The notes under the pieces: model-generated
The model's input: the letters and a program-made list of their open reading frames with translations, nothing else
What the model was told of the DNA's origin: nothing
Databases searched by the model: none
Position numbers and translations under genes: made by a program
In this document: positions 1-19,340 of the stretch, piece by piece
How the letters are laid out: each line of letters opens with the position of its first letter
Numbering within the stretch: the stretch's first letter is position 1
Source of the DNA: Gammaproteobacteria bacterium
GTDB taxonomy: Bacteria; Pseudomonadota; Gammaproteobacteria; Pseudomonadales; JAUIET01
Direction of reading: 5' to 3'
NCBI GenBank assembly: GCA_030431775.1
Contig: JAUIHW010000010.1
Span: forward strand, 47,923-111,922
DNA: 64,000 nt

Positions 1-387
1 TGCTAAATTGGTGCCCTGGAACGCCGACGCGCCGTGTTTTATGATCAGCGTGTCGTCCGCCTGTTTGCCGGTTCTGTCATCAATTTCAACTAATCGGGTA
101 CCCACCTTTAAGGCGGCCATCCCGGTTGCTTTTCTTAGCCAGGGCAGCGCCTTTATTTCCCACGGTTGATAAGCGATGGTGCTGTAGATGACCGGCATCT
201 CGGCGCGTCGGGCGTAATCGGTGAGCACTTTGGTGGCCGCGATTTCTGCAGACATGTCAGCCGCAGTCGGGTACGTGACATCGGTAAAGCCGTAGGAAAA
301 ATCGACCACGATGATAGCGGGTTGGCTTCCTCTCGATACAGACCTACCAAAGCCGGCTAACTGATACACACTGTCTTGGTCAGGCAT
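1..387 (-). CDS. nicF: Isochorismatase-family cysteine hydrolase, probable maleamate amidohydrolase (C-terminal part cut off by window edge)
   Basis: Not in the ORF track. Reading the minus strand from ATG at 387 gives MPDQDSVYQLAGFGRSVSRGSQPAIIVVDFSYGFTDVTYPT...IIKHGASAFQGTNLA, open to the edge; VVDF, K and SAFxGTxL motifs of the family; adjacent to other 2,5-dihydroxypyridine pathway genes. Confidence 0.8.
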   Translation of the reverse strand, partial: MPDQDSVYQLAGFGRSVSRGSQPAIIVVDFSYGFTDVTYPTAADMSAEIAATKVLTDYARRAEMPVIYSTIAYQPWEIKALPWLRKATGMAALKVGTRLVEIDDRTGKQADDTLIIKHGASAFQGTNLA

Positions 388-1454: not shown

Positions 1455-2249
1455 CTATTGAAGCGATTGACTCGCGAAATCCATGACGGCCTGCAAAAAT
1501 CCTTCAAGGTCGTCCCAGGGAATCATATGCCCTGCGTTTTCCACGATCTTCACCTCAATGTGCGGAGCCAGCAGCACAATCTCATCAAGATCCTCAGTTT
1601 GAATGACTGGCGCGCCGCCCGCGACTACAAGCCTGAGCGGAAGCGATAGGTTCGCGAGATCAGAATGAATATCGTCGGTGTGGAAACCCTTATAGGTAGT
1701 TTCGATCGCATCAAGTTGACAGGTATGCAGCCATTCAGCGCGTAATTCGAGCTGCTCGCGTGTCCATGTTGGGCAAAACTGTTTCATATCGTCGGCTGAG
1801 CAGCCGCGCGTGGCCATTACGATGGACTCTTCGTACCAGTTCCACGGTGACGGGTAGGCTCTTCTACCGGGGCCACTGACCGGCGGGTCGACCAGAACGG
1901 CACCAGAAAACGCATCCGGAGCGTTTCGTGCTGCTCTTATCGCGGTTCGTGCGCCCATTGAATGACCGAGCAGCAACGGCTTGGTGAAATAATCTGATGT
2001 CGCCAGCGCGATAACATCGTCTGCCATGGCGTTCAGCGAGTAATCAAGATCCCCGTCTTGACTTAAGCCTCTCCCCCGAACATCAAGCACATGAACATTG
2101 AAGGCGCCCGCCAAGCGTTCAGCGATGAAACCCCAAGTAATAGCAGGCGAAGTGATACCCGGAATGACCAACAGGTCTGGCCCATTTCCTTCGTGGTGAA
2201 TCAGGTGCTGGCGAATGCCGTTAGCGTGAACGTTGTAACCGATGGTCAT
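1455..2249 (-). CDS. nicD: N-formylmaleamate deformylase (alpha/beta hydrolase)
   Basis: 264 aa; NGIRQHLIHHEGNGPDLLVIPGITSPAITWGFIAERL, LLGHSMGARTAIRAA, VDPPVSGPGRRAYPSPW, AGHMIPWDDLEGF closely resemble NicD. Confidence 0.88.
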   Translation of the reverse strand: MTIGYNVHANGIRQHLIHHEGNGPDLLVIPGITSPAITWGFIAERLAGAFNVHVLDVRGRGLSQDGDLDYSLNAMADDVIALATSDYFTKPLLLGHSMGARTAIRAARNAPDAFSGAVLVDPPVSGPGRRAYPSPWNWYEESIVMATRGCSADDMKQFCPTWTREQLELRAEWLHTCQLDAIETTYKGFHTDDIHSDLANLSLPLRLVVAGGAPVIQTEDLDEIVLLAPHIEVKIVENAGHMIPWDDLEGFLQAVMDFASQSLQ

Positions 2250-2260: not shown

Positions 2261-3013
2261 CTAAAAAGCGCCGGAGAGCAAGCTACCACCGCCGGGCACA
2301 CGGGTAGACAATCCTAATGACTTGAGCATGGCCCAGGTTGTTGCAATCGCAGCGGTTATGACGGGCTTTCCTATCTGCGCTTCAACAACGGAAACAGCCG
2401 GTAGAGAGGGCATTTGTACACAGGCAGAAAGAACAATCGCATCGACCGCGTCAATTTTATTCATATTGGATACAATGCCTGGCAGCTTCTTCGGGTCGTG
2501 TGCAGCAACCTTGAGATTGTTTGAAATTTCCAAAGCCCGCCACTCGACAACGTCTATGCCCTCATTTCTGATGTACTCCACCACAACTTCTGTGAGTGGC
2601 TTCATGTAAGGTGCAACGAGCGCAACACGCTTCGCTCCTAATGCTTGAACGCCTTCAACAAGCGCTCCTGCAGATGTAACGATTGGCGCTGCGCCCTGAT
2701 TATTTTGCGTTACAGCATGTAGACGGTTTTGGGATTCACGATGGTAGCCAAAACCGATTGACATGATTGCGACCAGGCAGGCGTAGCCAATCACATCAAC
2801 TTTTGCATCGGACAGCTCCAGCGCACAACGGTCACTGTCCGCGTCCATAGCAGCCAGTTCCTCTGCGGTGACATGCTTCATACGCATTCGGGAAGAGTGA
2901 AACGTAAACCGTTCCGGATACGCACTTTCTCGAGCGCGGAGCAGCGCCGGAATTTCGGTTTCCATGGTTATGTTGGAACTCGGCACGATCTGGCCTATCC
3001 GGTAGTTTTTCAT
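2261..3013 (-). CDS. nicE: Maleate cis-trans isomerase (Asp/Glu racemase superfamily)
   Basis: 250 aa; RIGQIVPSSNITMETEIPALLRARE...ERFTFHSSRMRMKHVTAEELAAMDADSDRCALELSDAKVDVIGYACLVAIMS is the maleate isomerase signature. Confidence 0.92.
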   Translation of the reverse strand: MKNYRIGQIVPSSNITMETEIPALLRARESAYPERFTFHSSRMRMKHVTAEELAAMDADSDRCALELSDAKVDVIGYACLVAIMSIGFGYHRESQNRLHAVTQNNQGAAPIVTSAGALVEGVQALGAKRVALVAPYMKPLTEVVVEYIRNEGIDVVEWRALEISNNLKVAAHDPKKLPGIVSNMNKIDAVDAIVLSACVQMPSLPAVSVVEAQIGKPVITAAIATTWAMLKSLGLSTRVPGGGSLLSGAF

Positions 3014-3202: not shown

Positions 3203-3664
3203 ATGATCAAACTTCACATCAATAGTAAGGAGGTCAGCGTCAGTGCCAGCGAAGACACACCTCTCCTGTGGGTACTCAGAGACATTCTGAAGCTGAACGG
3301 CACCAAGTTTGGTTGTGGTGCCGGTCTATGTGGCGCGTGTACGGTACATATTGGGGGCAAAGCAGTTCGCAGCTGTGTAGTCCCGGTCAGTGCGGTTGCG
3401 GACAAGGCGATTACCACCATCGAAGGATTGTCCAGCGATGGCCCTCACCCGGTGCAGCAAGCGTGGCACACTCATCGGGTATCACAATGCGGATATTGTC
3501 AGCCCGGCATGATTATGGCGGCGGCGGCATTGCTGCAAAACAATCCACAACCGAATGATAAGGATATTGATGAGCAAATAACGAACATTTGCCGCTGCGG
3601 TACCTACCCCCGCGTACGCAAAGCGATCAAAACAGCGGCAAAAATAAGCTCGGGGGATGTATAG
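3203..3664 (+). CDS. 2x[2Fe-2S] small subunit of a xanthine dehydrogenase-family molybdenum hydroxylase (IorA/NicA type)
   Basis: 153 aa; [16 protein letters not shown] and [12 protein letters not shown]...[15 protein letters not shown] cluster motifs. Confidence 0.93.
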
Positions 3665-3666
3665 CC

Positions 3667-5925
3667 ATGAAGTCATCACGCATCAAACGCCGATCTTTCC
3701 TGCACGGTGTGACCACTGTCTCAGCGCTTGCTACTTTCCCCATTGCGATTTCGGGCTGCCAAACGACGCCCACAATGAGCGCGGGTAACACGGATATTCT
3801 TTATTGGGTCAGTATCAACAGCGATAACACGGTCACGTTCAAAATTCCTCAGCCTGAAATCGGTCAGGCAGCAACCACGACGGTGTCGCAGCTACTCGCC
3901 GAAGAGCTCGAAGCCGACTGGGATTCGGTGCGCACCGAATTTTATGATCCCAATACAAATCTCGACAATGCTAATGTATACGTCTGGACGCCTACCCTAG
4001 CCAGTCTGTCGGCTAATCACTTGTTTGATCCGGCCAGAACAGCCGGCGCACAAATTCGTGCGATGCTGATAAGTGCAGCGGCTTCCTCATTCGATTGCAA
4101 TCAAGACGAACTTTTCGCGTCTCGAAATTTTGTTCATCACAAGTCTGACGGGCGAAAACTCACCTATGCAGAGCTGGCACTGGCTGCTTCAGCCATGCAA
4201 CCACCAGGTGCTGGCCAGCTCGAGCTAAAAACCCAGGAGGACTGGAAACTGATAGGTAAATCAATCGACAGGCTTGATCTCAAGCAGTCGACACACGCGG
4301 GGATTAAATACGGTATTGATGTTGAAGTGCCTAATATGCGACACGCTGCTATTCGTCAGTGTCCGGTATACGGAGGTCGCCTGATAAAGGTTGATGACTC
4401 AGTTTTGAATGGCTTTCCAGGGGCGCCGAAAGTGATAACGCTCAAGGGTGGGCATGCAGGCTACAACTCGCCGGTTCCCGAAGGCGAAGACCCTGACTTA
4501 TGGGCGACCCCGGTGACTACCAGTGATGCTGTTGCGGTCGTAGCGGACACCTGGTGGCAAGCAAAGCGGGCATTGGATGCTTTGGAACCGCAATGGGACG
4601 AAGGGGAATTCAAGCACACTTCCAGTGACAGCCTGCGAGCCTCTTTGTCCGATAAATTAACGAAGCCGTTAGATCTTTCTATTTCAAGAGGGGATGTTGC
4701 AACAGCCAAGAAGTCGGCAGCGCAGGTCCATCAAGCAGAATACTATTATCCGTTTATGGACCCTGCACCTCTTGAGCCACTCAATTGTACTGCCGTGGTA
4801 AACGAAAACAGCGCGGAAATCTGGGCCGGAACGCAGTACGCCGATGAAGCGATCGAAGTAGCCAGCAAACTTACCGGATTGCCCAGGCAACAGATCGAAT
4901 TCCATATTATGCATTCTGGCGGGGGCTTTGGGCGCCGTGCGGAAAATGATTTTGTATACCAGGCAGTGCAGATTGCGATGGCCATTTCCGGTACGCCGGT
5001 AAAGCTGCTCTGGACTCGCGAAGAATGCATCCGGAAAAGCTTCTGCGCGCCATTGACCCTGGTGAAATATGAAGGTGCTATCGATGCGCAAGGCGAGGTT
5101 AGCGCTTGGGTATGCCGCGCCGCCAGCGGTCAAGCGGGCGACCAGGCTTATGGCGCCACTGAGTTTCCGTTTCATTTCCCCAATTCGCTGATCGAATACG
5201 ATCGCAGTACGCCAAGCCCGATCCCTTTCGGGTGGATGCGCGGCGTTGGTTACACTCAGCATCTCTGGATGAACTTTGGATTCCTCGATGAGCTGGCTCG
5301 GCTTGCAGGCGGAGACCCGGCACACATGTACCGGTCTTTGTTGCATGAGTCGAAAATTCCGCTCGGTATTGAGTCTCGTGAAATTGCAGTGCAGCGTGTC
5401 AATACCCTTCGCCGCGTACTTGATGCGACGCTTGAGTTAACTTCATGGGATACACACAAATCGGCTGAGAAATCTGGTCGAGGCATCGCAGTCAGTGATA
5501 CGGAGTATTATCCAGGCTACGGTTCAACGTCTGCAAAATCAGCCGTAGTCGATGTTAGCCTTACAGAAGAGCATGGACTGTCGATTAACAAGGTATTTAT
5601 AGTTATTGATTGTGGAACGGTCATTAATCCGGATATTGTTGTTAATCAATTGGAAGGTGGCGTTGCTTATGCGTTAACGAATGCGCTTTACAGTGAAATC
5701 GTGGTGGAACAGGGCCGGGTTGAACAGAGCAATTTTCATGACTACCCGATTTTGAAAGCACATGAGATGCCGGAAGTACAAATCGAGATTCTGCCAGGAA
5801 CAGGTAAGCCTCTCAGTGTCGGCGAGGACGCCCTACCCATTACTATAGCGGCTTTGGTTAACGCTATTGCTGATGCGGGTGGGCCGAGAATTCGCAGCCT
5901 GCCAATAAAGTTAAAACAGGCCTAA
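3667..5925 (+). CDS. Molybdopterin-binding large subunit (IorB/NicB-like), Tat signal with lipobox-like Cys, no C-terminal cytochrome domain
   Basis: Start moved to 3667: MKSSRIKRRSFLHGVTTVSALATFPIAISGC; GGGFGRRAENDF, GWMRGVGYTQH, IDCGTVINPDIVVNQLEGG, motifs of the isoquinoline oxidoreductase beta family; no CxxCH. Confidence 0.92.
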   Translation: MKSSRIKRRSFLHGVTTVSALATFPIAISGCQTTPTMSAGNTDILYWVSINSDNTVTFKIPQPEIGQAATTTVSQLLAEELEADWDSVRTEFYDPNTNLDNANVYVWTPTLASLSANHLFDPARTAGAQIRAMLISAAASSFDCNQDELFASRNFVHHKSDGRKLTYAELALAASAMQPPGAGQLELKTQEDWKLIGKSIDRLDLKQSTHAGIKYGIDVEVPNMRHAAIRQCPVYGGRLIKVDDSVLNGFPGAPKVITLKGGHAGYNSPVPEGEDPDLWATPVTTSDAVAVVADTWWQAKRALDALEPQWDEGEFKHTSSDSLRASLSDKLTKPLDLSISRGDVATAKKSAAQVHQAEYYYPFMDPAPLEPLNCTAVVNENSAEIWAGTQYADEAIEVASKLTGLPRQQIEFHIMHSGGGFGRRAENDFVYQAVQIAMAISGTPVKLLWTREECIRKSFCAPLTLVKYEGAIDAQGEVSAWVCRAASGQAGDQAYGATEFPFHFPNSLIEYDRSTPSPIPFGWMRGVGYTQHLWMNFGFLDELARLAGGDPAHMYRSLLHESKIPLGIESREIAVQRVNTLRRVLDATLELTSWDTHKSAEKSGRGIAVSDTEYYPGYGSTSAKSAVVDVSLTEEHGLSINKVFIVIDCGTVINPDIVVNQLEGGVAYALTNALYSEIVVEQGRVEQSNFHDYPILKAHEMPEVQIEILPGTGKPLSVGEDALPITIAALVNAIADAGGPRIRSLPIKLKQA

Positions 5926-5936
5926 CGTACGTGCAC

Positions 5937-8183
5937 TCAGAATTTGGCGATGAATTCTACTCCGAACATTCTTGGTAAACCGCGCTGGTTGTAGTCGTAG
6001 CCAAAGAACGCCACATTATCAAAACCGTAGGTGCGATACTCTTTATCAGTGAGGTTTCTCACCCAGGTAGATACACCATAGCGCTCGCTGCCCGACAGAA
6101 AGCTGAGTCTTGCATTGAGAACCGCATACGCTTTTTGTGACGTCCTTTGAGTATTGGGCGCATCGAAGAACTGGTCGGCTGAGTAAGTGCCATTGACGTT
6201 GAGACTGACTGTGCCAAAATCTCTTTGCAATATCTCCCAGTTTACCGCGCTGTTGACATTCCACTTGGGCGCGTTGATCAGCTCATTTCCTGTATGGTTC
6301 ACACCGTTAAGTGTGAGCTCATCGTATTCGGTATCCAGATAACCAAGTCCAAAATTAATGGTCAAATCTTCACTGGCCAACCAGGTGCCTTCCAGCTCTG
6401 CACCCAGTATGCTGGATTTAGGCGCATTCACTAGTGAGTACAGAAAAGTATTGGGGTCAGTATTCAAATACTGTTGGTCTTTATAATCGTAGCTGAATAC
6501 GGCTGCGTTCAAACGAAGTCGCTGGTCCAGAAACGTACCTTTCATCCCGAGCTCAATGGCTTCGAGCCGTTCAGGGTTTACAAAATTGATTTCCGACGGA
6601 TCATAGAAACCCTGGACTTGGTAGGAACCGCCTCTGAAAGCGCTACTCCATGACGCGTACAGCATGGTGTCTTCGCTCACAAAATACTCTAAGCCGATGT
6701 TTCCACCCCAGCGATCCACTTCATCTTTTAGCGTAGGCAGGAAGTTATTTCCGTCTGCCGGAATACCGTTGTAGTCAAACAACTCCTGACCGCTTGCGGG
6801 ATCGAGAAAGAAGTTGTCGGCTCGATATTTGTCCAGCTCAGCATCTTCCCGCGTATAGCGTATTCCCGCCAGCACATTGATTTTGTCTGTTACTTTAAAA
6901 TCCGTCTGGATAAATGCGGCATAACTTTCTTTTGTTTGTTCATAGGTGCTCTGTACCGTGCAGCCCGTGAAAAAGTCATCCTGACAGTCATTAATGCCGT
7001 TAGCCGGGGCATTGTCTCCGGCGAACGCATGCAAAAAGTTGTAGCGGTATCGACCATCAACATTTTCGGCAGACAAGTATGCACCAGCGATGAAGCTGAT
7101 TGTTCCACCATTGTCATAGGAAACTCGAATTTCCTGACTGACTTGATCAACATCGGCTAGATACCGGTTGTGGCTGATACTTTGTGCTATTCCATCGGCG
7201 TCCTCCAAAACATCCCATGAGCCATCCTGGTAGGCAGATATCGACGTCATTGTTAAGCTATTGCTCATGGCCCAGTTAACTGTTAGCGATACCAGTGTAT
7301 TATCGAGATCATTATGGCCGACCAGATCTGAACGAGTCTCGTGAAACCCTAAGCCCTCCCGGGTCTCACCAGTAAATCCGATACCAAACTCCCCGACATT
7401 GGTTTGCAGCGTCCCGGGTCCGGTGCCATCACCACTGAGGTGCTGTGCTCGTAACAAAAACTCTAGATTGTCGTTTGGCGTGTACAAAACGCTGACTCGA
7501 GCACTTTTATCTTCAACTGAAGAGGCGTCTTCACCCCGAGTAAGGTTTTCGACGTAGCCATCTACGTCCTGATAGTAAAGCGCACCGCGGATTGCCAGTT
7601 TGTTTTCTACCAGAGGAGCGCTAAAAGCCGCTTTGGCTTCCAGCCGGCCATAGTTACCTGCACCCAACGTCAAATACCCGTTGGCTTCAGAGAGATCCGG
7701 TCGTCTGGAGTAGAAATTGACAGCGCCACCGGTTACGTTTTTTCCGTACAGAGTCCCTTGTGGGCCGCGGAGAACTTCAACTCTGTCAAGGTCATACAGT
7801 GGGAAGGCTTGTAGCGCCGCTACTCCTCGATAGACTTCATCGGTATACATGGCGATAGGGCCGGCCTGATTCAGGCTATATTCGGACATGGTAATACCAC
7901 GAATCGTGTAGACCGGCATTGTCTCCCCGAATGGCATAGACACTTGCATGTTTGGTACCAAAGCAGCAACCTGGCTACTGGTATCAATCTTTGCAGCGCT
8001 CAATGAGCCTTCACTCAAAGCCGTTACAGCGATGGGGATGTCCTGGACACTCTCAGAACGTTTTTGAGCAGTTACCATAACCTCTTCCAAAACCGGCTTC
8101 GCCATAACAGCTGGACTATTCAAGGCATTTATTATGACTACTGAAACACTGAGTATCTTCAAGACAGTTGATCTGGAATCCAT
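5937..8183 (-). CDS. TonB-dependent receptor
   Basis: 748 aa; EEVMVTAQKRSESVQDIPIAV TonB-box/plug start, DLDRVEVLRGPQGTLYGKNVTGGAVN, terminal aromatic (FIAKF). Confidence 0.95.
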   Translation of the reverse strand: MDSRSTVLKILSVSVVIINALNSPAVMAKPVLEEVMVTAQKRSESVQDIPIAVTALSEGSLSAAKIDTSSQVAALVPNMQVSMPFGETMPVYTIRGITMSEYSLNQAGPIAMYTDEVYRGVAALQAFPLYDLDRVEVLRGPQGTLYGKNVTGGAVNFYSRRPDLSEANGYLTLGAGNYGRLEAKAAFSAPLVENKLAIRGALYYQDVDGYVENLTRGEDASSVEDKSARVSVLYTPNDNLEFLLRAQHLSGDGTGPGTLQTNVGEFGIGFTGETREGLGFHETRSDLVGHNDLDNTLVSLTVNWAMSNSLTMTSISAYQDGSWDVLEDADGIAQSISHNRYLADVDQVSQEIRVSYDNGGTISFIAGAYLSAENVDGRYRYNFLHAFAGDNAPANGINDCQDDFFTGCTVQSTYEQTKESYAAFIQTDFKVTDKINVLAGIRYTREDAELDKYRADNFFLDPASGQELFDYNGIPADGNNFLPTLKDEVDRWGGNIGLEYFVSEDTMLYASWSSAFRGGSYQVQGFYDPSEINFVNPERLEAIELGMKGTFLDQRLRLNAAVFSYDYKDQQYLNTDPNTFLYSLVNAPKSSILGAELEGTWLASEDLTINFGLGYLDTEYDELTLNGVNHTGNELINAPKWNVNSAVNWEILQRDFGTVSLNVNGTYSADQFFDAPNTQRTSQKAYAVLNARLSFLSGSERYGVSTWVRNLTDKEYRTYGFDNVAFFGYDYNQRGLPRMFGVEFIAKF

Positions 8184-8252
8184 TAGCCCCTCCAGGGTTT
8201 AAGAGTTGGTTACGCAGTTCTGACTGATAATCCGAGGTTGTTTAAATTTTTA

Positions 8253-8271
8253 TATAGGTAATATACCTATA
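8253..8271. promoter_or_regulatory. Putative operator B: TATAGGT-AATAT-ACCTATA
   Basis: Perfect 7-bp inverted half-sites with 5-bp spacer upstream of the receptor at 8183; same half-site and spacer as 10753-10773. Confidence 0.6.
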
Positions 8272-8344
8272 ATAATAGGTATGAAAACTAAAAACAAGCT
8301 AATAGTATTTGACGTTGCATTTTTTGACCTTGTCAAAAACAGTA

Positions 8345-9499
8345 CTAGGTTGTAGGGCTTTTAAGCACAGCGCCTTCAGGTCGCCGCGCGCCGATTATTA
8401 GGAAAATCATTATGAGTGGTGCTGTGATGGCGAGCATGCTCCACGCAATGGCGGAGTAGCCAAACTGCGTAATAAGCCAGCCGCCCACTACGGGGCCTGC
8501 GCTAAAGCTGACAAAAGATGCGCCGCCTATGAGCGCCGCCCAACGGCCTTCTTTGTCCAGCTCCGCCGCCAGGGTCAGTTGAAGCGGAAATGCCAGCATA
8601 TACAAGCAACCCTGGCTGATAACAGCGATCACAAAAATTGAGGAAATAGTGGTCAGCACTGCAAGAGCAACCGCGACCGCGTGCGCGATCAGACACACGA
8701 TCAGTGGCTTAATAGGGCCAAGGCGTGGCCCCAAATACGCGGCAAACCCACCCCCGGCGGCAGAGCCGATCAATAATGCGGTGTACAAGTACCCGATCGA
8801 CTGCGGGTCAAATCCAATGCGCACGGCAAAGCGTTCAATGAATGCGTAGTACGCCATCATGGCGATACCAAAGACGACCACCCCTAACATCAGCCAGCAC
8901 CCCTCTTGTTTATTGCGTAGTTTAATCACTGTGCGCGAGTGAGCGGACTGGCCGGAACGCGCGGGGAAACAACACAGTACTGCCAGAACCAGAGCCGTCA
9001 TCGCCAACATGACCTGATAGTAGCCTGCATACCCACGGGCCACGATTGCCTGCGCAATCGCAGGGCTGATCAGCGCAGTCAACAGGCAGGCCATCATGGT
9101 AGCGACACCGAACAGCATCGCCGGGTTTGGCGACTGGGCGATCACAGCGTTCACCGCCGCCAACAGCAGACCGCCGCCAAGACCGGCCACAACCCGCCAA
9201 ACGACTAGTGATGTAAACCCTACTGAGTAGATAGCCCCCACGTGTCCCAAAAGGAGCAGCAGCGTTCCAACGACCGCTAACGTTCGAACGGGGATGCGGG
9301 GCAGATAAGGAGCGACAAGCAGCGCGGTGATGCTCATGGCCAAGAGTTCGGCCGAAACCAAAAAACCAGACTGGGCCTCATCGGCACCAAAATAGGTGAT
9401 CACGCTGCCAATGACCAATCCAGACGTGTAGGGGGCTGCATAGACTCCAGTATTGGCGAGGCAAATTGAGGCGCCATGCATCCAGTTATTGGTGTTCAT
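8345..9499 (-). CDS. MFS transporter
   Basis: 384 aa, about 12 hydrophobic segments, MFS-like architecture; directly downstream of the Rieske gene on the same strand. Confidence 0.85.
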   Translation of the reverse strand: MNTNNWMHGASICLANTGVYAAPYTSGLVIGSVITYFGADEAQSGFLVSAELLAMSITALLVAPYLPRIPVRTLAVVGTLLLLLGHVGAIYSVGFTSLVVWRVVAGLGGGLLLAAVNAVIAQSPNPAMLFGVATMMACLLTALISPAIAQAIVARGYAGYYQVMLAMTALVLAVLCCFPARSGQSAHSRTVIKLRNKQEGCWLMLGVVVFGIAMMAYYAFIERFAVRIGFDPQSIGYLYTALLIGSAAGGGFAAYLGPRLGPIKPLIVCLIAHAVAVALAVLTTISSIFVIAVISQGCLYMLAFPLQLTLAAELDKEGRWAALIGGASFVSFSAGPVVGGWLITQFGYSAIAWSMLAITAPLIMIFLIIGARRPEGAVLKSPTT

Positions 9500-9537
9500 A
9501 GCCGTATGCTGCCTGCCCTGTACTGATTGTGGTGACT

Positions 9538-10710
9538 CTAGTCGGTTAGCATCCGTGCGAGGTAACGGCCGAAATCGAACAACGTCGTTTCGTGCACTGA
9601 CATTAATGATTGCTGTGCGTATTGGTTCTTCGCGCCCGCGAGCACGGCCTCTACGGCCGTCTTATCCTCTAGATTCACCCGGTCAAATGTTTGCTTGGTT
9701 TCTTCATAAAATCGTTCGTGATCTTCTTCCTGCGCCAGGCGTTCCGGTGCAACTGCCAGGCCGCGCCGCACGCGCAGTTGCTCGGCACCGTGCGGTTGTA
9801 TCGACATATACCATAAAAAGTCGCCTGTGATTTGGATGAGGTGAGCCGGAAACACGCACGCGACCGAGCCAGTTTCACGCCATTCGCCTTCTAAATGCGT
9901 GTTGGTTTCCGGGGTAACACAAAACCCCCGGTCAGGTTTCACTTTGGAGGTGGAGTAGGTAAAGGCGTCGTGACCCGGGTGAGGAGTCTGCCATGACGTT
10001 GGTGAGATCGGCTCAAAGGTTTCGCGGTGCACCTTGAATAGATGGTAGCCTTCGATAAAGTTCTCCACCAGAATTTTCCAATTGGTATTCCATAACTCAT
10101 CATCGTGAACAAATGTAATGTAGTCTGCCATTCGGTAGCGACCGTACACGTCGGCAAGGTCCCCAAGTCGATCGCTGACCTTGTAGTCGATATCGGCGTT
10201 GAGCGTGACATAGATGAAACCCTGCCAGATATCCAATTTTAGCTCCGTAAGCTGCCTGCCTTCTGTGGTGAAACCCTGGGTTTTATCCATGTACGGCGCA
10301 CGCAGCAGGCTGCCGCTGGCGTCGTAAGTCCACGCATGGTAAGGGCAGGCGAAGCGGAGTTTTCCACGGCCGCGTGTGTCCTTGAGCAATTTAGCGCATC
10401 GGTGAAGACACGTGTTCGCGAAGGCTTTAATGCTGCCATCCTGCTGACGAATGGCAAACACGGGCTGCTCGGCAATGTCCATGGTGACAAAGTCACCTGG
10501 TTCACGAATTTCTTCGGTACGGCCGATACAAATCCACTCTTTTGAGAACAGTTTGTTGATTTCCAGGCGGTTGAAAGCATCGCATACATAGACGGCCGGG
10601 GGGAGGGTAAGTGCTTCGTCCACTGATCGCGTTTTGCACTCTGACAGAGCCTGGAGCAGAGCGTCGCTGACACCGTACTGTCCCGAGGCGGATTCAGGTT
10701 GTCTTGCCAT
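9538..10710 (-). CDS. Rieske non-heme iron oxygenase, alpha subunit
   Basis: 390 aa; CLHRC...CPYHAW Rieske motif, ENFIEGYHLFKVH mononuclear iron motif. Confidence 0.93.
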   Translation of the reverse strand: MARQPESASGQYGVSDALLQALSECKTRSVDEALTLPPAVYVCDAFNRLEINKLFSKEWICIGRTEEIREPGDFVTMDIAEQPVFAIRQQDGSIKAFANTCLHRCAKLLKDTRGRGKLRFACPYHAWTYDASGSLLRAPYMDKTQGFTTEGRQLTELKLDIWQGFIYVTLNADIDYKVSDRLGDLADVYGRYRMADYITFVHDDELWNTNWKILVENFIEGYHLFKVHRETFEPISPTSWQTPHPGHDAFTYSTSKVKPDRGFCVTPETNTHLEGEWRETGSVACVFPAHLIQITGDFLWYMSIQPHGAEQLRVRRGLAVAPERLAQEEDHERFYEETKQTFDRVNLEDKTAVEAVLAGAKNQYAQQSLMSVHETTLFDFGRYLARMLTD

Positions 10711-10752
10711 AACCAGATATTTACGAGTTATTTAAGAATGAGTTCGCGGTAT

Positions 10753-10773
10753 TATTAGGTAGAAAACCTAATA
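10753..10773. promoter_or_regulatory. Putative operator B: TATTAGGT-AGAAA-ACCTAATA
   Basis: Perfect 8-bp inverted repeat in the divergent region between the Rieske oxygenase and TetR genes. Confidence 0.65.
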
Positions 10774-10958
10774 TGTCTACCCTGTTAACGGCGTTTCCAG
10801 CAATCAAGCGTTGGGACAATTGAATACTTCCAGCGTGCTGTAATGAAAGTAGAGTGAATATTGCTACACTAGCGGAAACGCGCGATCAACAGTTTTGGGC
10901 CACTGGGCGCTCTGCGTTGGCGCTGGCGGTAACAGTCTAACTATCCAGAAAACGTTCT

Positions 10959-11591
10959 ATGACTAAAGGCGGTACAAAGTTACACAATAGCGAAACGTCT
11001 GGTTTGACGCCGAAAGGCGCGAAAACGCGGCGGGCTATCCTGAAAGTCGCGCGAAATACGTTGGTGTCAAACGCTGATGGCAACCTGTCGATTAAACAGG
11101 TGGCCGAGGAAGTTGGTATTAGCCTTGGCAATCTACAATATTACTTCCCCACCAAAAGCGAATTGATACGAGGTGTATTGCAGGAATGGCTAGAATCTGA
11201 CCTTGATGCGCTAGACAGCGCGGTACGTAGTAAAAAATCTGGGCCCAGACAGAGGTTACTTGCATTTATTGACCAACAGCTGGCATCCAGTCAGAAAATC
11301 TATGATATTAAACTAATTGTGCACATCTGGAACGCCGCAATCTATGACGAAAAACTAAACGAAGCACTGGCTGAATGGTACGCGAACTATCGCCGGATTG
11401 TGAAAGATATGTTGTTAGAAGCTAACCCTCAAATATCAACTTCCCAACTGGATAATCTTGCAGCCATTGTTATCGCGGTAATTGAGGGTGAATCGGTCAT
11501 CAACGGTGCAAGTATGCCAGCCCGACCAGAGCTCAAGAATCTGCATAGCGAGATTCGTTTGAGCATCTTGCGTTTGGCCGGTCTCGAATAG
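10959..11591 (+). CDS. TetR/AcrR-family regulator
   Basis: 210 aa; N-terminal HTH TRRAILKVARNTLVSNADGNLSIKQVAEEVGISLGNLQYYFPTKSELIRGV. Confidence 0.92.
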   Translation: MTKGGTKLHNSETSGLTPKGAKTRRAILKVARNTLVSNADGNLSIKQVAEEVGISLGNLQYYFPTKSELIRGVLQEWLESDLDALDSAVRSKKSGPRQRLLAFIDQQLASSQKIYDIKLIVHIWNAAIYDEKLNEALAEWYANYRRIVKDMLLEANPQISTSQLDNLAAIVIAVIEGESVINGASMPARPELKNLHSEIRLSILRLAGLE

Positions 11592-11673
11592 AGCGATGAT
11601 CTGCCAGGTGTCGCGCTGGCCAGCATGGGCATGATGCTTCGAGACGGATCTGCGCTAGTGTGTAGCTCAGACC

Positions 11674-12153
11674 TCACAATGGAGATTTAGACGCGATAAA
11701 GGCGATCAGCGCAGCGCGATCCTCGGGATTATTGAGGCCGGTATAAGCCATGCTGGTGCCCGGATACACTGACTGGGGTGCAGCAATGAATGTGTTCATG
11801 TGCTCGACAGACCAGACTTCCGGCTTATTCGCCATGGCCTGAGTGTAAGGAAAGCCGTCAATCGAGCCTACATTACGCCCGGCGACACCGTAGAGACTGG
11901 GGCCGCCGGGTGAAAACTCACCCTCTGCCAGGCCATGACATCCGGCGCACATTTGAAACATGCGTTGACCTCGTTCCAGTGTTGAGTCTGTTGCGGACTG
12001 CTTGACCGCGATCCAGTCAGCGGTGACCTGCTTCGTCTCAAGCGGGTTCGAGGCAGTCTCTTCAATGAGGTCGGCGGAGCAACCCGCAATCAGCCACAGC
12101 GTCACCGCTGCAAGCAGGCTTCGAAACAGAGCTGTCTGCTTCAGTCCGGTCAT
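11674..12153 (-). CDS. Class I cytochrome c, predicted lipoprotein
   Basis: 159 aa; lipobox-like LIAGC near the N-terminus, MCAGCHG heme motif, Met in PGTSMAY; overlaps the upstream amine oxidase by 4 bp. Confidence 0.9.
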   Translation of the reverse strand: MTGLKQTALFRSLLAAVTLWLIAGCSADLIEETASNPLETKQVTADWIAVKQSATDSTLERGQRMFQMCAGCHGLAEGEFSPGGPSLYGVAGRNVGSIDGFPYTQAMANKPEVWSVEHMNTFIAAPQSVYPGTSMAYTGLNNPEDRAALIAFIASKSPL

Positions 12154-13619
12154 GAAGCGCCGGTCGATGCCGATTCCTCAGCGAGTGCCTGGCGAACTTC
12201 TCGTCCAGCCCGAATACCACTCTCAACCGCCCCGTCGATGTAGGCGTGCCACCCGTCTGCAGTCGCACCGCCGGCAAAAAACAAGCGCCCTTCAGGTTTC
12301 GCCATCTCTTTGTATTTGCTGAACCAACCAACACGGTATGAAGGCCAGGCCTGACGTGAAAACGGATCAGTAGCCCAGTTGTAGCTTGATATGGCCTCTA
12401 TTTCCGCTTTTGGGAACAGGCGTTTCATGACTGCGCTGACGGCATCGTGATCGTTAAGGTCAATCAGCGATTGCCGCCCCAGAGTCACTTTCACGATCGT
12501 ACCGAAATCGTCATCAAAATACTCCGTCTGTATTGCGGTAAAGGGATTTGGGTCATCACAAAAAGAAAAGGTGTTGCCGAGGTTTTGCTTGAAACGAACA
12601 AACAGGCAAGCGCCATCGCACATTTCTGCATTCGCAATGAACTCCCGCTTTTCATTAGACAAACCGGGGGTAAAATCAATGTCATCGTATACTTTGGTGG
12701 GCACGGTAATGACTGCGGCTTTCGCTGATACTGTTTGGCCATCGGTGGTTTCAACCCTGATTGCATTCTGATCCTGATGAACCTTAGCGACCACTTTGCC
12801 CAACCGGACTTCAGCACCGCTGTGATCTAGTATCGCCTGGCAGAGGCCAAGAGTGCCTCCGTCCGATATCTTGTAACGCTTTTCGGAATCGCTGAACACA
12901 TAATAGTCCCAAGCGGCAAGAGCATATATTTTCAAAAAGCTTGTATAACTGAACTCATCGGGTGGTGCGCCACCGTAAAGTGTCAGTTCAGCGTTCAAAG
13001 TAGCCTTTTGAAGTTCATTTAAGCCCAGACTTTCCATGTGATCAGCCGCGGATACATTGCTCAGCTCCAGAACACCTGGCTTAAAAAATGGGGAGTATGG
13101 CCTTGGGAACAACTCTTTTGATCCGGCGCAGAAGGCTATTCTCGCAGAGTCGTAGGCTTCGCCAAATTCACTCGGGGAGATTCTCTTTATTTCTCCAGAT
13201 GACAACATCACGTTTGTGGCATCTAGGTCAACCAGCGGAACTTCCTCAAACCCTTTACCATAGCGTTGCATCTCGGCAAATACATGGGGCTGAATCCAGT
13301 GTACGGCCGAACCTCCAAACTCCACTTTCTTGCCTTGAAAATTCCCGGTAAATGTCCGGCCACCAAGGCGGGGGCGTGCCTCCAGAAGAAGCACGCGCTT
13401 GCCTTCAACACCTAATTCGCGAGCTGCGGTAACGCCCGCAAAGCCGCCGCCGATCACGATTACATCGAAATCCAGGTCATGCGATTTTGGCGTTTGCTTG
13501 GCGATGGGTTGGTCTCCCGGTGGTGCACAGCTTTGTAAAGCTGTTCCGGCCGAAACGGCAGCCGCAGCCATCAATACGCTGCGCCGTGTAATGGGTGGTT
13601 TGCTGTCTTGATTATTCAT
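12150..13619 (-). CDS. Flavin-containing amine oxidase/dehydrogenase, similar to nicotine oxidoreductase NicA2, Tat signal
   Basis: 489 aa; ITRRSVLMAAAAVSAGTALQSC signal; DVIVIGGGFAGVTAARELG...LLLEARPRLGGRTFTGNF...EFGGSAVHWIQPHVFAEMQRYG; C-terminal GWHAYIDGAVESGIRAGREV; extended similarity to remembered NicA2. Confidence 0.88.
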   Translation of the reverse strand: MNNQDSKPPITRRSVLMAAAAVSAGTALQSCAPPGDQPIAKQTPKSHDLDFDVIVIGGGFAGVTAARELGVEGKRVLLLEARPRLGGRTFTGNFQGKKVEFGGSAVHWIQPHVFAEMQRYGKGFEEVPLVDLDATNVMLSSGEIKRISPSEFGEAYDSARIAFCAGSKELFPRPYSPFFKPGVLELSNVSAADHMESLGLNELQKATLNAELTLYGGAPPDEFSYTSFLKIYALAAWDYYVFSDSEKRYKISDGGTLGLCQAILDHSGAEVRLGKVVAKVHQDQNAIRVETTDGQTVSAKAAVITVPTKVYDDIDFTPGLSNEKREFIANAEMCDGACLFVRFKQNLGNTFSFCDDPNPFTAIQTEYFDDDFGTIVKVTLGRQSLIDLNDHDAVSAVMKRLFPKAEIEAISSYNWATDPFSRQAWPSYRVGWFSKYKEMAKPEGRLFFAGGATADGWHAYIDGAVESGIRAGREVRQALAEESASTGAS

Positions 13620-13731
13620 AGTGTCAGGCCCAAGTATGGTGCTCTTTTCCGCGTAGCCCAGAGAGTGACTCGTTGCTATCGTAACGAGCTGCTATTGACT
13701 CCCTCTCAGCTTATTGGTAGTGTTCAATAAA

Positions 13732-13755
13732 TTAATTATGCATTTGAACAATTAA
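13732..13755. promoter_or_regulatory. Putative operator A, divergent amine oxidase / FAD monooxygenase promoter region
   Basis: TTAATTATGCA-TT-TGAACAATTAA. Confidence 0.6.
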
Positions 13756-13898
13756 ACGGTACCAATTCCAACACCAAAGGTCAACTAATTTGGCATGGCT
13801 TTGCAGTTTTATGGTCATGCTGGCAAAAAAGTCAATGCAACAACAAGGCGCAGTTGAAACACACTGGCTTTACTAAGCCAAGCAGAGGTAGCGATAGC

Positions 13899-15071
13899 AT
13901 GAGCGATCACGTAATTATTGCAGGTGGAGGGCCTTGTGGTTTGCTGACCGCTCTTGGTCTGGCACAGTCAGGAACACGGGTAACCGTCGTCGAGGCCCTG
14001 GACGAGCTGAACGACAGTCCTCGGGCATTGGTCTATCACCACCCAGTATTACCCCATTTAGAGAGGCTGGGGATTCTGGATGATTGTATCAAGACCGGGT
14101 TTGTGCGGCAGGGCTTCACCTGGCGTATACACAGTTCAGGCGAGCTTATCCACTGGTCTATGGAGTGCTTGGATGAGGCTACGCCGCATCCTTATGCATT
14201 GCACCTGCATCAGGGCTTATTGTCCGATATTGTTGCCAAGCATCTTGAACCATTCACTAATGTGGAGATCAGAAAGTCCACGCGTTGCACCGCATGCACT
14301 GACAGTGCGACTGGGGTGGTTGTTGAAGTAGAGAGCCCTGCAGGTCGCGAAGTGCTTGAAGGCGACTTTCTGGTGGGCGCAGATGGCGCCAGAAGCTCGG
14401 TGCGTAGTGATATTCTTGGATTGAATTTTTTCGGCATAACCTGGCCAAAGCGGTACATCGCAACCAATACCTATGTGGATTTAAGTAGCCAGGATTACAA
14501 CGACACTACGATGCAGCTGGATGATTCCTATGGCGCCGTGATGTGCCGGATAGATGACAACAAATTGTGGCGGGTCACTTTCATGGAAGATCCGGATCTC
14601 CCGGAAGAGAGTATTCCCGAGCGAATAGCGGAGAAGTTTGTCCACCATATACCGGATATTCCCTATCAGCTTGATGATTACGCGCCTTACAGAATGCACC
14701 AGCGCATTGCGGATAAGATGAGAGTAGGGCGCGTGCTACTGGTTGGCGACTCCGCACATGTGACCAACCCTACGGGTGGGCTGGGTCTCACTGGCGGCAT
14801 GTTCGATGCGTTCGCACTGACCGAAGCGTTGAATCGCGTTATCCATGATGGCGCAAGCCACGATCTGCTTGAGTTTTACGAAACTGATCGGCGTCGTATT
14901 TTTATTGAGCTGACTTCCCCTCGAGCCAGCGATAACCTAAGGAGGCTTTATTACCTGCAGCCGGGCCAGCAAAAGGACGACTGCGTTGATTGGCTTCGAA
15001 ATGTGAGCCTTGATCAGAGCTTGATGCGTGAGCAGATGCGATTTACAGAAGACATGGAAACTCGGTTCTGA
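13899..15071 (+). CDS. FAD-dependent aromatic monooxygenase (PHBH/UbiH-like)
   Basis: Start at 13899: MSDHVIIAGGGPCGLLTALGLAQSG; DFLVGADGARSSVR; GRVLLVGDSAHVTNPTGGLGLTGG. Confidence 0.9.
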   Translation: MSDHVIIAGGGPCGLLTALGLAQSGTRVTVVEALDELNDSPRALVYHHPVLPHLERLGILDDCIKTGFVRQGFTWRIHSSGELIHWSMECLDEATPHPYALHLHQGLLSDIVAKHLEPFTNVEIRKSTRCTACTDSATGVVVEVESPAGREVLEGDFLVGADGARSSVRSDILGLNFFGITWPKRYIATNTYVDLSSQDYNDTTMQLDDSYGAVMCRIDDNKLWRVTFMEDPDLPEESIPERIAEKFVHHIPDIPYQLDDYAPYRMHQRIADKMRVGRVLLVGDSAHVTNPTGGLGLTGGMFDAFALTEALNRVIHDGASHDLLEFYETDRRRIFIELTSPRASDNLRRLYYLQPGQQKDDCVDWLRNVSLDQSLMREQMRFTEDMETRF

Positions 15072-15125
15072 TCAGCAGCTTACAGCAAGCAAGGCAAATT
15101 TCTCCAATTGTACAGGGGCGAACAA

Positions 15126-15509
15126 ATGTCCGAATTAGAAACAAAGGTGCTTCAGTTTATGGAGCGCTTCAACGCCGGCGACCTCGATGCAGCGATGGCT
15201 GATTTTGCCGAAAACTCTCAATACATTGATGAGTACGGCACCATTCACAGCGGGAAAAAAGACATCTCAGAAGCACTAGCCCCAATCTTTAATGGCGCGT
15301 TTGGACAGCTGAAGTATACGGTTAGCGATTTGATTCTCGATTCAGACGCGAATCGCGCCCTGGTGACGTGGGAATTGCTCATCACGGGCGCCGATAGTGC
15401 CGTAAGTAGAATGCAGGGCCTAGATATACTGGATTTTGAAGGAACCAGGGTTCGCTCGAAAAACTGCTTCATAAAGGCAAAAGAAACTCTGATCGAGCCG
15501 CTTAGCTGA
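15126..15509 (+). CDS. SnoaL/NTF2-like protein
   Basis: MSELETKVLQFMERFNAGDLDAAMADFAENSQYIDEYGTIHSGKKDI, typical NTF2-like fold start; in operon between two redox enzymes. Confidence 0.75.
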   Translation: MSELETKVLQFMERFNAGDLDAAMADFAENSQYIDEYGTIHSGKKDISEALAPIFNGAFGQLKYTVSDLILDSDANRALVTWELLITGADSAVSRMQGLDILDFEGTRVRSKNCFIKAKETLIEPLS

Positions 15510-15547
15510 TTGATCCAAAAATTCCGTGCAGCGCCGAGGTATTCACC

Positions 15548-17554
15548 ATGTCATCACGTGATCCGCGTTACGATATTCTATTTGAGCCCGTTCAAATTGG
15601 GCCGGTAATGATGAAAAATCGATTCTACGTGGCTCCTCACGCGGATTCATTTGGTATGAGCAAGATTGATGAAATGATTGCTTATAGAAGAGCGCGAGCT
15701 GAAGGAGGTTGGGGAGCAGTATGCACCGGGGAAACCATGATCCACGAAACATCAGATCATGCGCCGTTTATATGTACGCGAATATCTTCAGATAGCTTTA
15801 TTGAGCCGCTTTCCCGTCTCACTTCGGCTATTCATGAGTACGATAGTCTGGCAGGGATAGAGTTGGCGCACGTAGGCTCTTCATGCCCGGCGTGGTCATT
15901 CCGTGAACACCCGATTGCGCCGTCGGCGCAATTCCCGAGGCTATACAATAATCCAGTGGCCGCTCGGAAAATGGATAAGAAGGATATCCAGAATTTTCGA
16001 AAGTGGCATCGCGATGCAGCTATACGCGCGAAAAAAGCTGGATTTGACATTATCTATGCATATTGTTCGCATGACCTCTCTTTGCTGCAAGACTTTCTAC
16101 TGCAAAGTACTAACAAACGGAACGATGAGTACGGCGGTGCATTCGAAAATCGCTTGCGCTTATTAAAAGAAGTCCTTAGCGACCTAAAGGATACCGTTGG
16201 CGATAGCTGCGCGATTGCATTACGCTTTGCGGTAGAAGATCGGCGCCCTGGTTCCGATTTGACGGCTCAGGGTGAAGGCCGTCGTGTGGTTGAGGCGCTT
16301 GCTGATATTCCTGATCTTTGGGATGTGAATGTATCAGACTGGGGTTGGGACAGCGGAAGCTCGCGATTCTTCGAAGAAGGTGCTCAGGAGCCATTTATAA
16401 AATTCGTAAAGCAAGTGACTAATAAACCGGTTGTTGGTGTCGGACGCTTTACCTCCCCAGACGCAATGGTAAGCCAGATCCGCCGAGGAAATCTCGACAT
16501 CATAGGCGCAGCAAGGCCTTCGATTGCAGATCCTTTTTTACCAATAAAAATCGATAGCGGCAATATCGAGAGCATTCGCGAGTGCATAGGCTGTAACGTA
16601 TGCGCCGGTGAGGTCATGAACAACACAGCCATTCGATGCACACAGAATCCATCAGTGGGAGAAGAGTTTCGCAGAAACTGGCACCCTGAACATGTGCCAC
16701 CGGCCGAAGATGGTTCAAAGAGCATACTCATTGTAGGTGGGGGTCCTGCTGGCCTGGAAGCAGCACTGACACTCGGTAAACGCGGCTATCAAGTAAGCAT
16801 TGCTGACGCTGGGAATGAATGGGGAGGCCGCTTGGTAAAAGAGCGGCGAATGCCAGGTCTTAGTGCCTGGGGCAGGGTAGTCGATTATCGTGTGGAACAG
16901 TTGCAGGTAATGCCAAATGTGCAAATGTTTTTGGCAAGTTCGCTAACCGCAAACGATGTGGAAGGCTTCGAGGCTGATCACGTGATTGTAGCGACGGGTG
17001 CAACCTGGCGCCTTGATGGCAGCGGGCGTTCGCATGATAAACCTATCCCCGGTTGGGAAAATGAAAATGTCTGCTCACCCGACAAAATATTGGACGGAGA
17101 CCTGCCTAAAGGTCATGTCGTTGTCTACGATGACGATTACTACTACATGGCGACGGTGATTGTTGACAAACTAGTGGAGGCAGGCTGTAAGGTTAGTTAT
17201 ATCACCACTGCCCCTTCGCCAAGCCCGTGGACTTTCAACACTCTAGAACAGGAGCATATTGTACGTTCGATGGTAGAAGCCAACGTCGACATAAGAGTAG
17301 GGACATCAATCAGCCGCGTCGAAGAGAGCAGTGTGCATATCACTCGTGAATACAGTGTTACTGGTGTAGACCTTCCTGTTGATGGTCTGGTGCTAGTTAC
17401 TGGCCAGCTGGCAAACGATTCGTTGTATTACGACCTTTTGAAAAAACACGAGTCAGGAACGATCCGCTCGTTGCAGCGCATTGGTGACTGCGTAAGTCCG
17501 GCTTTGATTGCCCAGGCAACCCATGATGGTCGCCTTGCCGGCATGAACTATTAG
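15548..17554 (+). CDS. Trimethylamine/dimethylamine dehydrogenase-family flavoprotein (OYE-type FMN domain, 4Fe-4S, NAD(P)-like FAD domain)
   Basis: 668 aa; DPRYDILFEPVQIGPVMMKNRFYVAPH, GARPSIADPFLPIKI, CIGCNVC...CTQN, SILIVGGGPAGLEAALTLGKRGY. Confidence 0.9.
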   Translation: MSSRDPRYDILFEPVQIGPVMMKNRFYVAPHADSFGMSKIDEMIAYRRARAEGGWGAVCTGETMIHETSDHAPFICTRISSDSFIEPLSRLTSAIHEYDSLAGIELAHVGSSCPAWSFREHPIAPSAQFPRLYNNPVAARKMDKKDIQNFRKWHRDAAIRAKKAGFDIIYAYCSHDLSLLQDFLLQSTNKRNDEYGGAFENRLRLLKEVLSDLKDTVGDSCAIALRFAVEDRRPGSDLTAQGEGRRVVEALADIPDLWDVNVSDWGWDSGSSRFFEEGAQEPFIKFVKQVTNKPVVGVGRFTSPDAMVSQIRRGNLDIIGAARPSIADPFLPIKIDSGNIESIRECIGCNVCAGEVMNNTAIRCTQNPSVGEEFRRNWHPEHVPPAEDGSKSILIVGGGPAGLEAALTLGKRGYQVSIADAGNEWGGRLVKERRMPGLSAWGRVVDYRVEQLQVMPNVQMFLASSLTANDVEGFEADHVIVATGATWRLDGSGRSHDKPIPGWENENVCSPDKILDGDLPKGHVVVYDDDYYYMATVIVDKLVEAGCKVSYITTAPSPSPWTFNTLEQEHIVRSMVEANVDIRVGTSISRVEESSVHITREYSVTGVDLPVDGLVLVTGQLANDSLYYDLLKKHESGTIRSLQRIGDCVSPALIAQATHDGRLAGMNY

Positions 17555-17644
17555 TGAATTAGCCCTGGGAGCTGATGACGAAACGATTGTTTGCTGTCCA
17601 GAAAGCCGTGAAGACAGAGAATGAGTGGCCCGCTGCCCTCAGTG

Positions 17645-18556
17645 TCATCCGTGGGGGCTCGGCGAACTCGCTACGGTGAAGTCCGTTTCTTCGAGTACGA
17701 TTGAGGGGCAACACATCTCTACCCATCCGCAATAGGGAGGCGAGACCTGGTAGCCCAATAGTTCCTGCACTTGTCTTGGGTATTTTCGTACCGTTTCCTT
17801 CGGCACCACCAAGTATTGATTTTCTTCCTGCCGTCGATGTCCCTGGGTAAGGGAAATCGCAATGGCAAGGCGCCGCTCATCTTCGGTCATGTTGGCGCCA
17901 CCTCCGTGATAGAGCGAACCGAAGTACAGTAAGCCTGAGCCCCGTCGCATTTCAGCGCAGACCGCCTCTTGAGGTGTTGGTATTCTATCCATATCCCATT
18001 TGTGACTGCCAGGAATTGCCATCGTTGCGCCATTCTTTGCAGTGAAATCTGTTCCGGCAAACAAGGTCTGTAATAGTGTTTGAGGACCTGGATGATAGGC
18101 ATGATACATGCCGTCGTCGCGATGCAAATCCTGGGCGGGCTGGCCAGGCCAGATTTCAATCGCCTGGGTTACTGAGATTTGGATGGAAGGCTTCACCATC
18201 TGTCGTTTCTCGCCTGCAGCCATAGGAAACTCTGGCCGGAGGAAGGCATCGGCTGCACCAAGAAAAATCGGGTTCTGTACGAATTCTGCGGTTGCCAGTG
18301 ATTTGGCAAATAACGCTGAGCAGCGCCGAGTTCTATCACCGGAAAACCCTTGCTCGCCAAACGGCGTGCGCTCCAGCCAGGGAGCCAAATCTGCAATAAA
18401 TCGGTCCATCACATCGGCCGAAATCATGTCTTCGATGATTATACAGCCGTCACGGTCAAGAACCTCGCATACATCATCAATCAACGAATCGTTAGTAAAG
18501 CGTGTTATTGCCAACTTCAATACCCCAGGTGCTCGCGATTTCTGTGAGGGACGCAT
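17645..18556 (-). CDS. Phytanoyl-CoA dioxygenase (PhyH)-family protein
   Basis: 303 aa; LHRDDGMYHAYHPGPQTLLQTL (HxD) and LYHGGGANMTEDERRLAIAISL distal His; start may be internal because an operator-like site abuts it. Confidence 0.8.
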   Translation of the reverse strand: MRPSQKSRAPGVLKLAITRFTNDSLIDDVCEVLDRDGCIIIEDMISADVMDRFIADLAPWLERTPFGEQGFSGDRTRRCSALFAKSLATAEFVQNPIFLGAADAFLRPEFPMAAGEKRQMVKPSIQISVTQAIEIWPGQPAQDLHRDDGMYHAYHPGPQTLLQTLFAGTDFTAKNGATMAIPGSHKWDMDRIPTPQEAVCAEMRRGSGLLYFGSLYHGGGANMTEDERRLAIAISLTQGHRRQEENQYLVVPKETVRKYPRQVQELLGYQVSPPYCGWVEMCCPSIVLEETDFTVASSPSPHG

Positions 18557-18579
18557 TTATTGCTCGTTTGAACAATATT
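18556..18579. promoter_or_regulatory. Putative operator A (weaker) upstream of PhyH gene
   Basis: TTTATTGCTCG-TT-TGAACAATATT; one strong half-site. Confidence 0.35.
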
Positions 18580-18965
18580 TAAGTTGAGTCTACACTCGCC
18601 ACTCTGGCTGTCAAGCCGGGAAATAAAGCGAACCTCTCTCTTGGTGTGTTAGTGGCGCCACAAAGGCGTCACAGCATTGGTTGCTCATGACTCCGGGAAG
18701 AGAACGGCGGCAAGTACGATTGGTGGGCATTGCTATGTTTCCGAGTATATAAGATATGGACCCCCATGACCCCATATCAGCCGGTAGTCAACAGGCGATG
18801 AACCGCCTGATAACCGATTGATGGCCTAGAATTCCTCCGCCAGCCCTTAAAAATCAACAGTTTTTTCTCCACATACCGCCCCATCCTAACCATCAGGCTT
18901 GCCGGACTCCTGCCGCGCCGCCAGGGTTGCAGCAACTTGAATAGCATCGTTGTTTTTTTCGAGCG

Positions 18966-19147
18966 TTATTTGAACAGGCCCGCTTGCATGCAGGCAGCGG
19001 ATGACGCACGACTTTCAAGCAACAGATTGGAATCCTGTGTGGCGGCTTTGCCCTCCAAGTGGCTTTGTATCTTCTCAATGACCACCGGGTCTTTAATGCA
19101 GGCGATCACTTTGACAGCGCCACCGCATTCAACGCATGTTTTGATAG
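18966..19147 (-). pseudogene. C-terminal remnant of an IS91-family-like transposase
   Basis: Minus-strand translation KTCVECGGAVKVIACIKDPVVIEKIQSHLEGKAATQDSNLLLES...GLFK*; resembles the CPxCGGxLKVIAxIxDPxVIxxILxHL tail of IS91/IS801-type transposases; stops just upstream, no full ORF. Confidence 0.6.
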
Positions 19148-19316
19148 CAGATTAAGCCTATCGGCGTTTACCGGCCATAAGACGGGTTAGGTTGTTTCGT
19201 AGAGCTTGGTTAAAACCCCGCCAGTAGCCGATATACAAAAATACAGTATCTGCAATTCGGTACCATTCGCCTAAAGTGCTTGACATTGTGCCATATCGTT
19301 CGCTATCTTCCATTTA

Positions 19317-19340
19317 TTAATTGTTCACATGAATAATTAA
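19317..19340. promoter_or_regulatory. Putative operator A upstream of TonB-dependent receptor
   Basis: TTAATTGTTCA-CA-TGAATAATTAA; best match, one mismatch between half-sites. Confidence 0.65.

Follow-up and report, generated by a model that had tools for sequence, protein, structure and literature searches.

A predicted 6-hydroxynicotine dehydrogenase and its overlapping lipoprotein cytochrome c gene in a gammaproteobacterial nicotine cluster

Two overlapping genes in the window (the whole 64,000-nucleotide stretch of DNA that was analyzed) encode a flavin amine oxidoreductase (FAO) and a c-type cytochrome that, as we hold with good confidence, together constitute the 6-hydroxynicotine:cytochrome c oxidoreductase of a VPP/ndp-type nicotine cluster. 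By analogy with characterized enzymes, electrons very probably pass from the FAO to the cytochrome specified by the overlapping gene, and the likely substrate is (S)-6-hydroxynicotine and not nicotine. A sequence-only reading of this DNA had proposed an alkaloid:cytochrome c oxidoreductase, which is the best-supported interpretation and matches relatives that have been tested (PMC12224317, PMC12272882, PMC9396064), but which had already been published for the family. The features at the center of the analysis are:

12150..13619, minus strand: flavin amine oxidoreductase (FAO) of the NdpB/NctX type, predicted 6-hydroxynicotine dehydrogenase (PF01593; best PDB match NctB, 6cr0)
11674..12153, minus strand: class I c-type cytochrome, predicted lipoprotein and proposed electron acceptor (PF00034; cytochrome c matches in the PDB)
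12150..12153, minus strand: 4-bp ATGA stop/start overlap between the FAO and cytochrome genes (from the sequence)

Both open reading frames lie exactly where the sequence-only reading had placed them, and on the minus strand: translation yields an FAO of 489 aa (13619 to 12150) and a cytochrome c of 159 aa (12153 to 11674), and coding-strand bases 12153-12150 read ATGA, the cytochrome ATG start sharing 4 bp with the FAO TGA stop. The FAO matches PF01593 (Amino_oxidase) at 161 bits against a cut-off of 19.8 and contains the FAD Rossmann motif GGGFAGVTAAREL, which places it in the FAO superfamily. Its partner is the cytochrome c that it had been taken for, with a PF00034 match of 39.5 bits, a single CxxCH at residues 69-73 and Met135 within a conserved YPGTxM. 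The accompanying proposal that the cytochrome is membrane-tethered is supported by its lipobox LIAGC at Cys25 (PROSITE pattern PS51257), which makes it a predicted lipoprotein; overlooked in that proposal were the FAO's own signals, a twin-arginine motif with RR from residue 12 (ITRRSVLM...ALQSC; assigned by motif only) and an LQSC lipobox at Cys31 that passes the PROSITE lipoprotein pattern. The FAO is itself a predicted Tat-exported lipoprotein and, because each protein carries a lipobox, both are predicted to be tethered. TatC, cytochrome c maturation and heme-copper oxidases are encoded in the genome. The two sequence traits described for cytochrome-c-using FAO dehydrogenases, an N-terminal Tat signal (here the motif) and an adjacent cytochrome gene, are both present (PMC12224317).

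Conservation of the overlap in homologous loci had been named as a check on the pairing, and the overlap is indeed found in every export-signal-bearing relative examined: in each, a lipoprotein-like cytochrome c gene directly follows the FAO gene and overlaps it, by 4 bp in Pseudohalioglobus lutimaris and Sphingobium as in the present locus, by 8 bp in Novosphingobium and one MAG, and by 11 bp in a Halieaceae MAG, the last two figures depending on the start codon chosen. The Halieaceae MAG cytochrome has a weak lipobox, and the relatives' overlapping cytochromes are only 32-43% identical to the present one. Two NctB-type enzymes, from Shinella and Paracoccus, have neither an export signal nor an adjacent cytochrome gene. 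Export signal and adjacent cytochrome change together, in a comparison of small numbers and related lineages. Because the overlapping FAO-to-cytochrome order recurs in all of the signal-bearing relatives examined, we take the overlap here to reflect more than chance.

When the FAO was searched against the PDB, the best match was NctB ((S)-6-hydroxynicotine oxidase, 6cr0) at 547 bits, followed by NicA2 at 474 bits, with all others at or below 310. Among genomes the nearest protein is that of P. lutimaris HF004 (79% identity), and then come MAGs and sphingomonad NdpB enzymes (56-60%). Since identity is 56-60% to the NctB/NdpB/NctX lineage and 46% to NicA2, the description of the enzyme as NicA2-like is imprecise and does not hold in a strict sense. 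In the tree the NctB/NdpB/NctX lineage has support of 100/100 with NicA2 outside, and the present gene forms, together with P. lutimaris, an early branch beside NctB and NdpB/NctX (98/97), a placement that matches the published position of the P. lutimaris enzyme (PMC12272882). The tree favors nesting of NctB within the cytochrome-bearing group, but not firmly (AU p = 0.097). Assignment to NicA2 proper was rejected, identity being only 46% and NicA2 residues W108, W364, N462 and Lys340 being A, A, Y and C here; the Ala and Tyr at the second and third of these positions are common to all NdpB/NctB-lineage enzymes compared. An order-level genome survey returned only distant FAO homologues, at most 34% identical, and the gene was not found in the one same-genus genome searched. 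The G+C content of the cluster (window 1-18600) is 51.2%, compared with 54.7% at the housekeeping end of the window; this lower value and the missing gene in the same-genus genome are consistent with horizontal acquisition of the cluster.

The key oxidase states described for this family include A90, M100, V214, E300 and Tyr328, where the dehydrogenase ancestor has V, V, I, T and Glu (PMC12272882). The aligned residues in the present FAO are V127, V137, I251, C338 and E366, so that four of the five positions show the dehydrogenase state and the fifth is Cys338, not the oxidase Glu. At position 329 of the same study the present FAO has Tyr, whereas Node C has Glu and Node D has Ala. Membership of the NctB-type oxidases was rejected: the signal and adjacent cytochrome are present, there is no Glu at 300, and the main associated oxidase residues are replaced. 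The flavin-facing Lys331 of NctB is kept as K377, and the flavin lysine of NicA2, Lys340, aligns with Cys338, which, like Tyr239, differs from the residue in NdpB and NctB. A Trp/Tyr pair has been proposed as the electron exit in NicA2 (PMC9396064); it is kept as W415/Y413, but because NctB has both residues too, they do not discriminate a dehydrogenase from an oxidase.

On the evidence of sequence homology, the pair is part of an almost complete VPP/ndp nicotine cluster with homologues of NdpA-H, whose other members are:

1..387, minus strand: NdpG/Ami/NicF-like maleamate amidase, N-terminal part (65% to Shinella; whole gene at contig 47674-48309)
406..1431, minus strand: NdpE/NicX/Hpo 2,5-dihydroxypyridine 5,6-dioxygenase (PDB 7cn3, 299 bits; 78% to Shinella)
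1455..2249, minus strand: NdpF/Nfo/NicD-like N-formylmaleamate deformylase, an alpha/beta hydrolase (71% to the Shinella cluster gene)
2261..3013, minus strand: NdpH/Iso/NicE-like maleate isomerase (76% to annotated ndpH of S. xenophagum; 78% to Shinella)
3203..3664, plus strand: 2Fe-2S subunit of a nicotine dehydrogenase-like molybdenum hydroxylase, NdhB/NdpAS (Fer2/Fer2_2; 61% to the Shinella HZN7 subunit)
3667..5925, plus strand: nicotine dehydrogenase molybdenum subunit, NdhA/NdpAL (MoCoBD domains; 54% to annotated ndhA of Shinella HZN7)
8345..9499, minus strand: MFS transporter, possible product importer (PF07690)
10959..11591, plus strand: TetR-family regulator, possible cluster regulator (TetR domains)
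13881..15071, plus strand: NdpD/HspB-like 6-hydroxy-3-succinoylpyridine 3-monooxygenase (PDB 7da9, HspB, 502 bits)
15123..15509, plus strand: SnoaL-like protein kept in nicotine clusters (PF12680; 57% in P. lutimaris, 40% in S. xenophagum)
15548..17554, plus strand: NdpC/Pno-like 6-hydroxypseudooxynicotine dehydrogenase of the FMN/Fe-S family (67% to annotated ndpC of Sphingobium fuliginis)
17645..18556, minus strand: PhyH-family dioxygenase (PF05721; 66% in Sphingobium ndp clusters)

The NicF-like gene straddles the left window edge and completes the lower nicotine pathway, and the NdpC/Pno-like protein matches PDB 6l6j at 1045 bits as well as histamine and trimethylamine dehydrogenases. Homologues of most cluster genes occur near the P. 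lutimaris FAO gene, and the loci of the Halieaceae MAG and Shinella contain several of them. In Sphingobium and Shinella an aldehyde dehydrogenase gene stands beside the FAO gene; neither the window nor the 40 kb on its left nor the P. lutimaris locus yielded one. Counterparts of the SnoaL-like and PhyH-family genes are also present in Sphingobium ndp clusters, and neither has an assigned step in the pathway. A Rieske oxygenase resembling the glycine betaine monooxygenase family lies inside the cluster at 9538-10710, with the MFS gene on one side and the TetR gene on the other; the related loci examined, including 21 kb around the P. lutimaris gene, yielded no homologue. At 5937-8183 and 19457-21709 the cluster is flanked by TonB-dependent receptors; the second shares 74% identity with a receptor next to the P. 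lutimaris cluster and so may import a pathway substrate. Left of the window, at contig 42967-44265 (left-flank locus coordinates 14956-16293), there is a second FAO, 31% identical, with no Tat signal and no nearby cytochrome gene, and both the P. lutimaris nicotine cluster (locus coordinates 4471-5781) and that of the Halieaceae MAG (5575-6921) contain an orthologue of it; a Rid-family gene is found further left of the NicF-like gene (left-flank locus coordinates 17523-17900).

The overlap might represent ordinary operon compaction with no functional pairing, as genes in bacterial operons very often overlap by 4 bp. We consider this very improbable, because adjacency and overlap persist while the surrounding gene order shifts between lineages and because the pair is missing where the export signal is missing; FAO and cytochrome divergences also track one another (Spearman 0.73), a correlation that is only suggestive because its 15 pairs are non-independent. 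A functional pairing in which the FAO hands its electrons to the cytochrome competes in turn with the view that the FAO is an O2-using oxidase like NctB and that the cytochrome serves something else. Such a view draws on NctB being the best solved relative, on the conservation of its Lys331 as K377, and on the B. anthina and P. taiwanensis members, which have an adjacent cytochrome and still react appreciably with O2 (PMC12224317). We nevertheless judge it quite unlikely: NctB and its Paracoccus relative lack the signal and adjacent cytochrome that the present FAO possesses, the residues at the main oxidase-determining positions are not those of an oxidase, and the published ancestral nodes A, B and C around this branch react with O2 at only 18-76 M-1 s-1 (PMC12272882).

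The chemistry and the acceptor could also be as proposed with a different natural substrate, namely nicotine, nornicotine or a marine pyridine alkaloid. The closest named relatives, P. lutimaris and Halieaceae, come from families known in marine samples, Cys338 and Tyr239 are unlike the residues of NdpB and NctB, and the second FAO conserved in the cluster has no assigned substrate. Against this stand the NdhAB, Pno, HspB and NicX-type orthologues, all of which indicate the 6-hydroxylated VPP route, the replacement of NicA2 Trp108, Trp364 and Asn462 by Ala, Ala and Tyr, and the preference for 6-hydroxynicotine of Node B, the ancestor reconstructed where P. lutimaris branches off (PMC12272882), and a substrate other than 6-hydroxynicotine accordingly seems to us unlikely. 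The prediction of (S)-6-hydroxynicotine follows from the NctB/NdpB/NctX lineage of the enzyme and its VPP/ndp surroundings, and this compound is the most likely substrate because the cluster has NdhAB and because loss of ndpB in Sphingomonas melonis TY abolishes growth on nicotine with accumulation of 6-hydroxynicotine (PMC5343071).

In the mechanism that we propose for the 6-hydroxynicotine:cytochrome c oxidoreductase, the NdhAB molybdenum hydroxylase would make (S)-6-hydroxynicotine in the periplasm, and the FAO, exported folded via Tat and lipid-anchored on Cys31, would oxidize its pyrrolidine ring to 6-hydroxy-N-methylmyosmine with transfer of hydride to FAD. The resulting FADH2 would give two electrons, singly, to the product of the overlapping gene, a lipid-anchored cytochrome c, which a terminal oxidase would then re-oxidize; the hydride transfer, single-electron steps and terminal oxidase of this scheme are carried over from tested relatives, and reaction of the FAO with O2 should, by the same analogy, be poor. 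Hydrolysis of the product would give 6-hydroxypseudooxynicotine, which would then enter the cytoplasm for breakdown by Pno, HspB, NicX, NicD, NicF and NicE. Relatives with an adjacent cytochrome have been shown to use it; for enzymes of clades 2 and 3, reaction with the adjacent cytochrome proceeds at 10^4-10^6 M-1 s-1 (PMC12224317).

More tentatively, and with appreciable doubt, we suggest that one lipid-tethered cytochrome c may act as the shared acceptor, in succession, of two periplasmic enzymes that would themselves be lipid-tethered, the NdhAB nicotine 6-hydroxylase and the 6-hydroxynicotine dehydrogenase. This suggestion arises because NdhA has a Tat motif and a lipobox (ISGC) and there is no clear pseudoazurin gene, pseudoazurin being the acceptor used by NdhAB of Agrobacterium S33 (PMC7688666). 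The present genome yielded no pseudoazurin-like gene except a weak copper-domain match inside a 588-aa frame, and searches of relatives' genomes turned up no stand-alone one; some relatives lack the NdhA lipobox. A simple swap, with pseudoazurin in oxidase-type clusters and cytochrome in dehydrogenase-type clusters, is not supported because the Paracoccus NctB-type genome has no pseudoazurin match either. On the Shinella HZN7 plasmid (locus coordinates 16406-19419), an IS66 insertion apparently interrupts the pseudoazurin gene beside ndhA.

Publications of 2022 to 2025 already contain the general concept, its NdpB/NctX form in which the enzymes are lipoproteins, and the orthologue from P. lutimaris, which is named as forming an operon with a cytochrome c (PMC12272882). 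Absent from the publications consulted are the full cluster around the early branch, Cys338 and the notion that the cytochrome also serves NdhAB. Modern NctX proteins were not obtained soluble in E. coli (PMC12272882), and because of this insolubility the publications consulted contain no kinetics for a native NctX/NdpB-cytochrome pair; the present or P. lutimaris pair could supply the soluble NctX-type enzyme with its native cytochrome that they lack. The locus adds another early-branch genome to the lineage used to study the flavoenzyme switch between cytochrome c and O2, and gives that branch, within gammaproteobacteria, an almost complete pathway setting.

Among named systems the closest is that of P. 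lutimaris HF004, whose FAO is 79% identical, likewise has Cys at position 338 and overlaps a lipoprotein cytochrome c gene by 4 bp, with the same nicotine cluster genes around it; its gene order is different, and the Rieske oxygenase of the present window was not found in the 21 kb examined there. NdpB (NctX group) of Sphingobium/Sphingomonas is similar in its 56-58% identity, its status as a Tat lipoprotein, its overlapping 159-aa lipoprotein cytochrome and its ndp cluster; it differs in having Thr at the Cys338 position, and its neighboring aldehyde dehydrogenase and flavin reductase are without counterparts near the present gene. NctB of Shinella HZN7 is 56% identical, has the same likely substrate and a lysine at the Lys331 position, but is without a signal peptide and adjacent cytochrome, and its A90, M100, V214, E300 and Y328 are replaced here. 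The NicA2-CycN system of Pseudomonas putida S16 resembles the present pair in its cytochrome c acceptor, Tat export and operon with the cytochrome gene, whereas it differs in its 46% identity, its nicotine substrate, the lysine Lys340 at the place of Cys338 and its pyrrolidine pathway.
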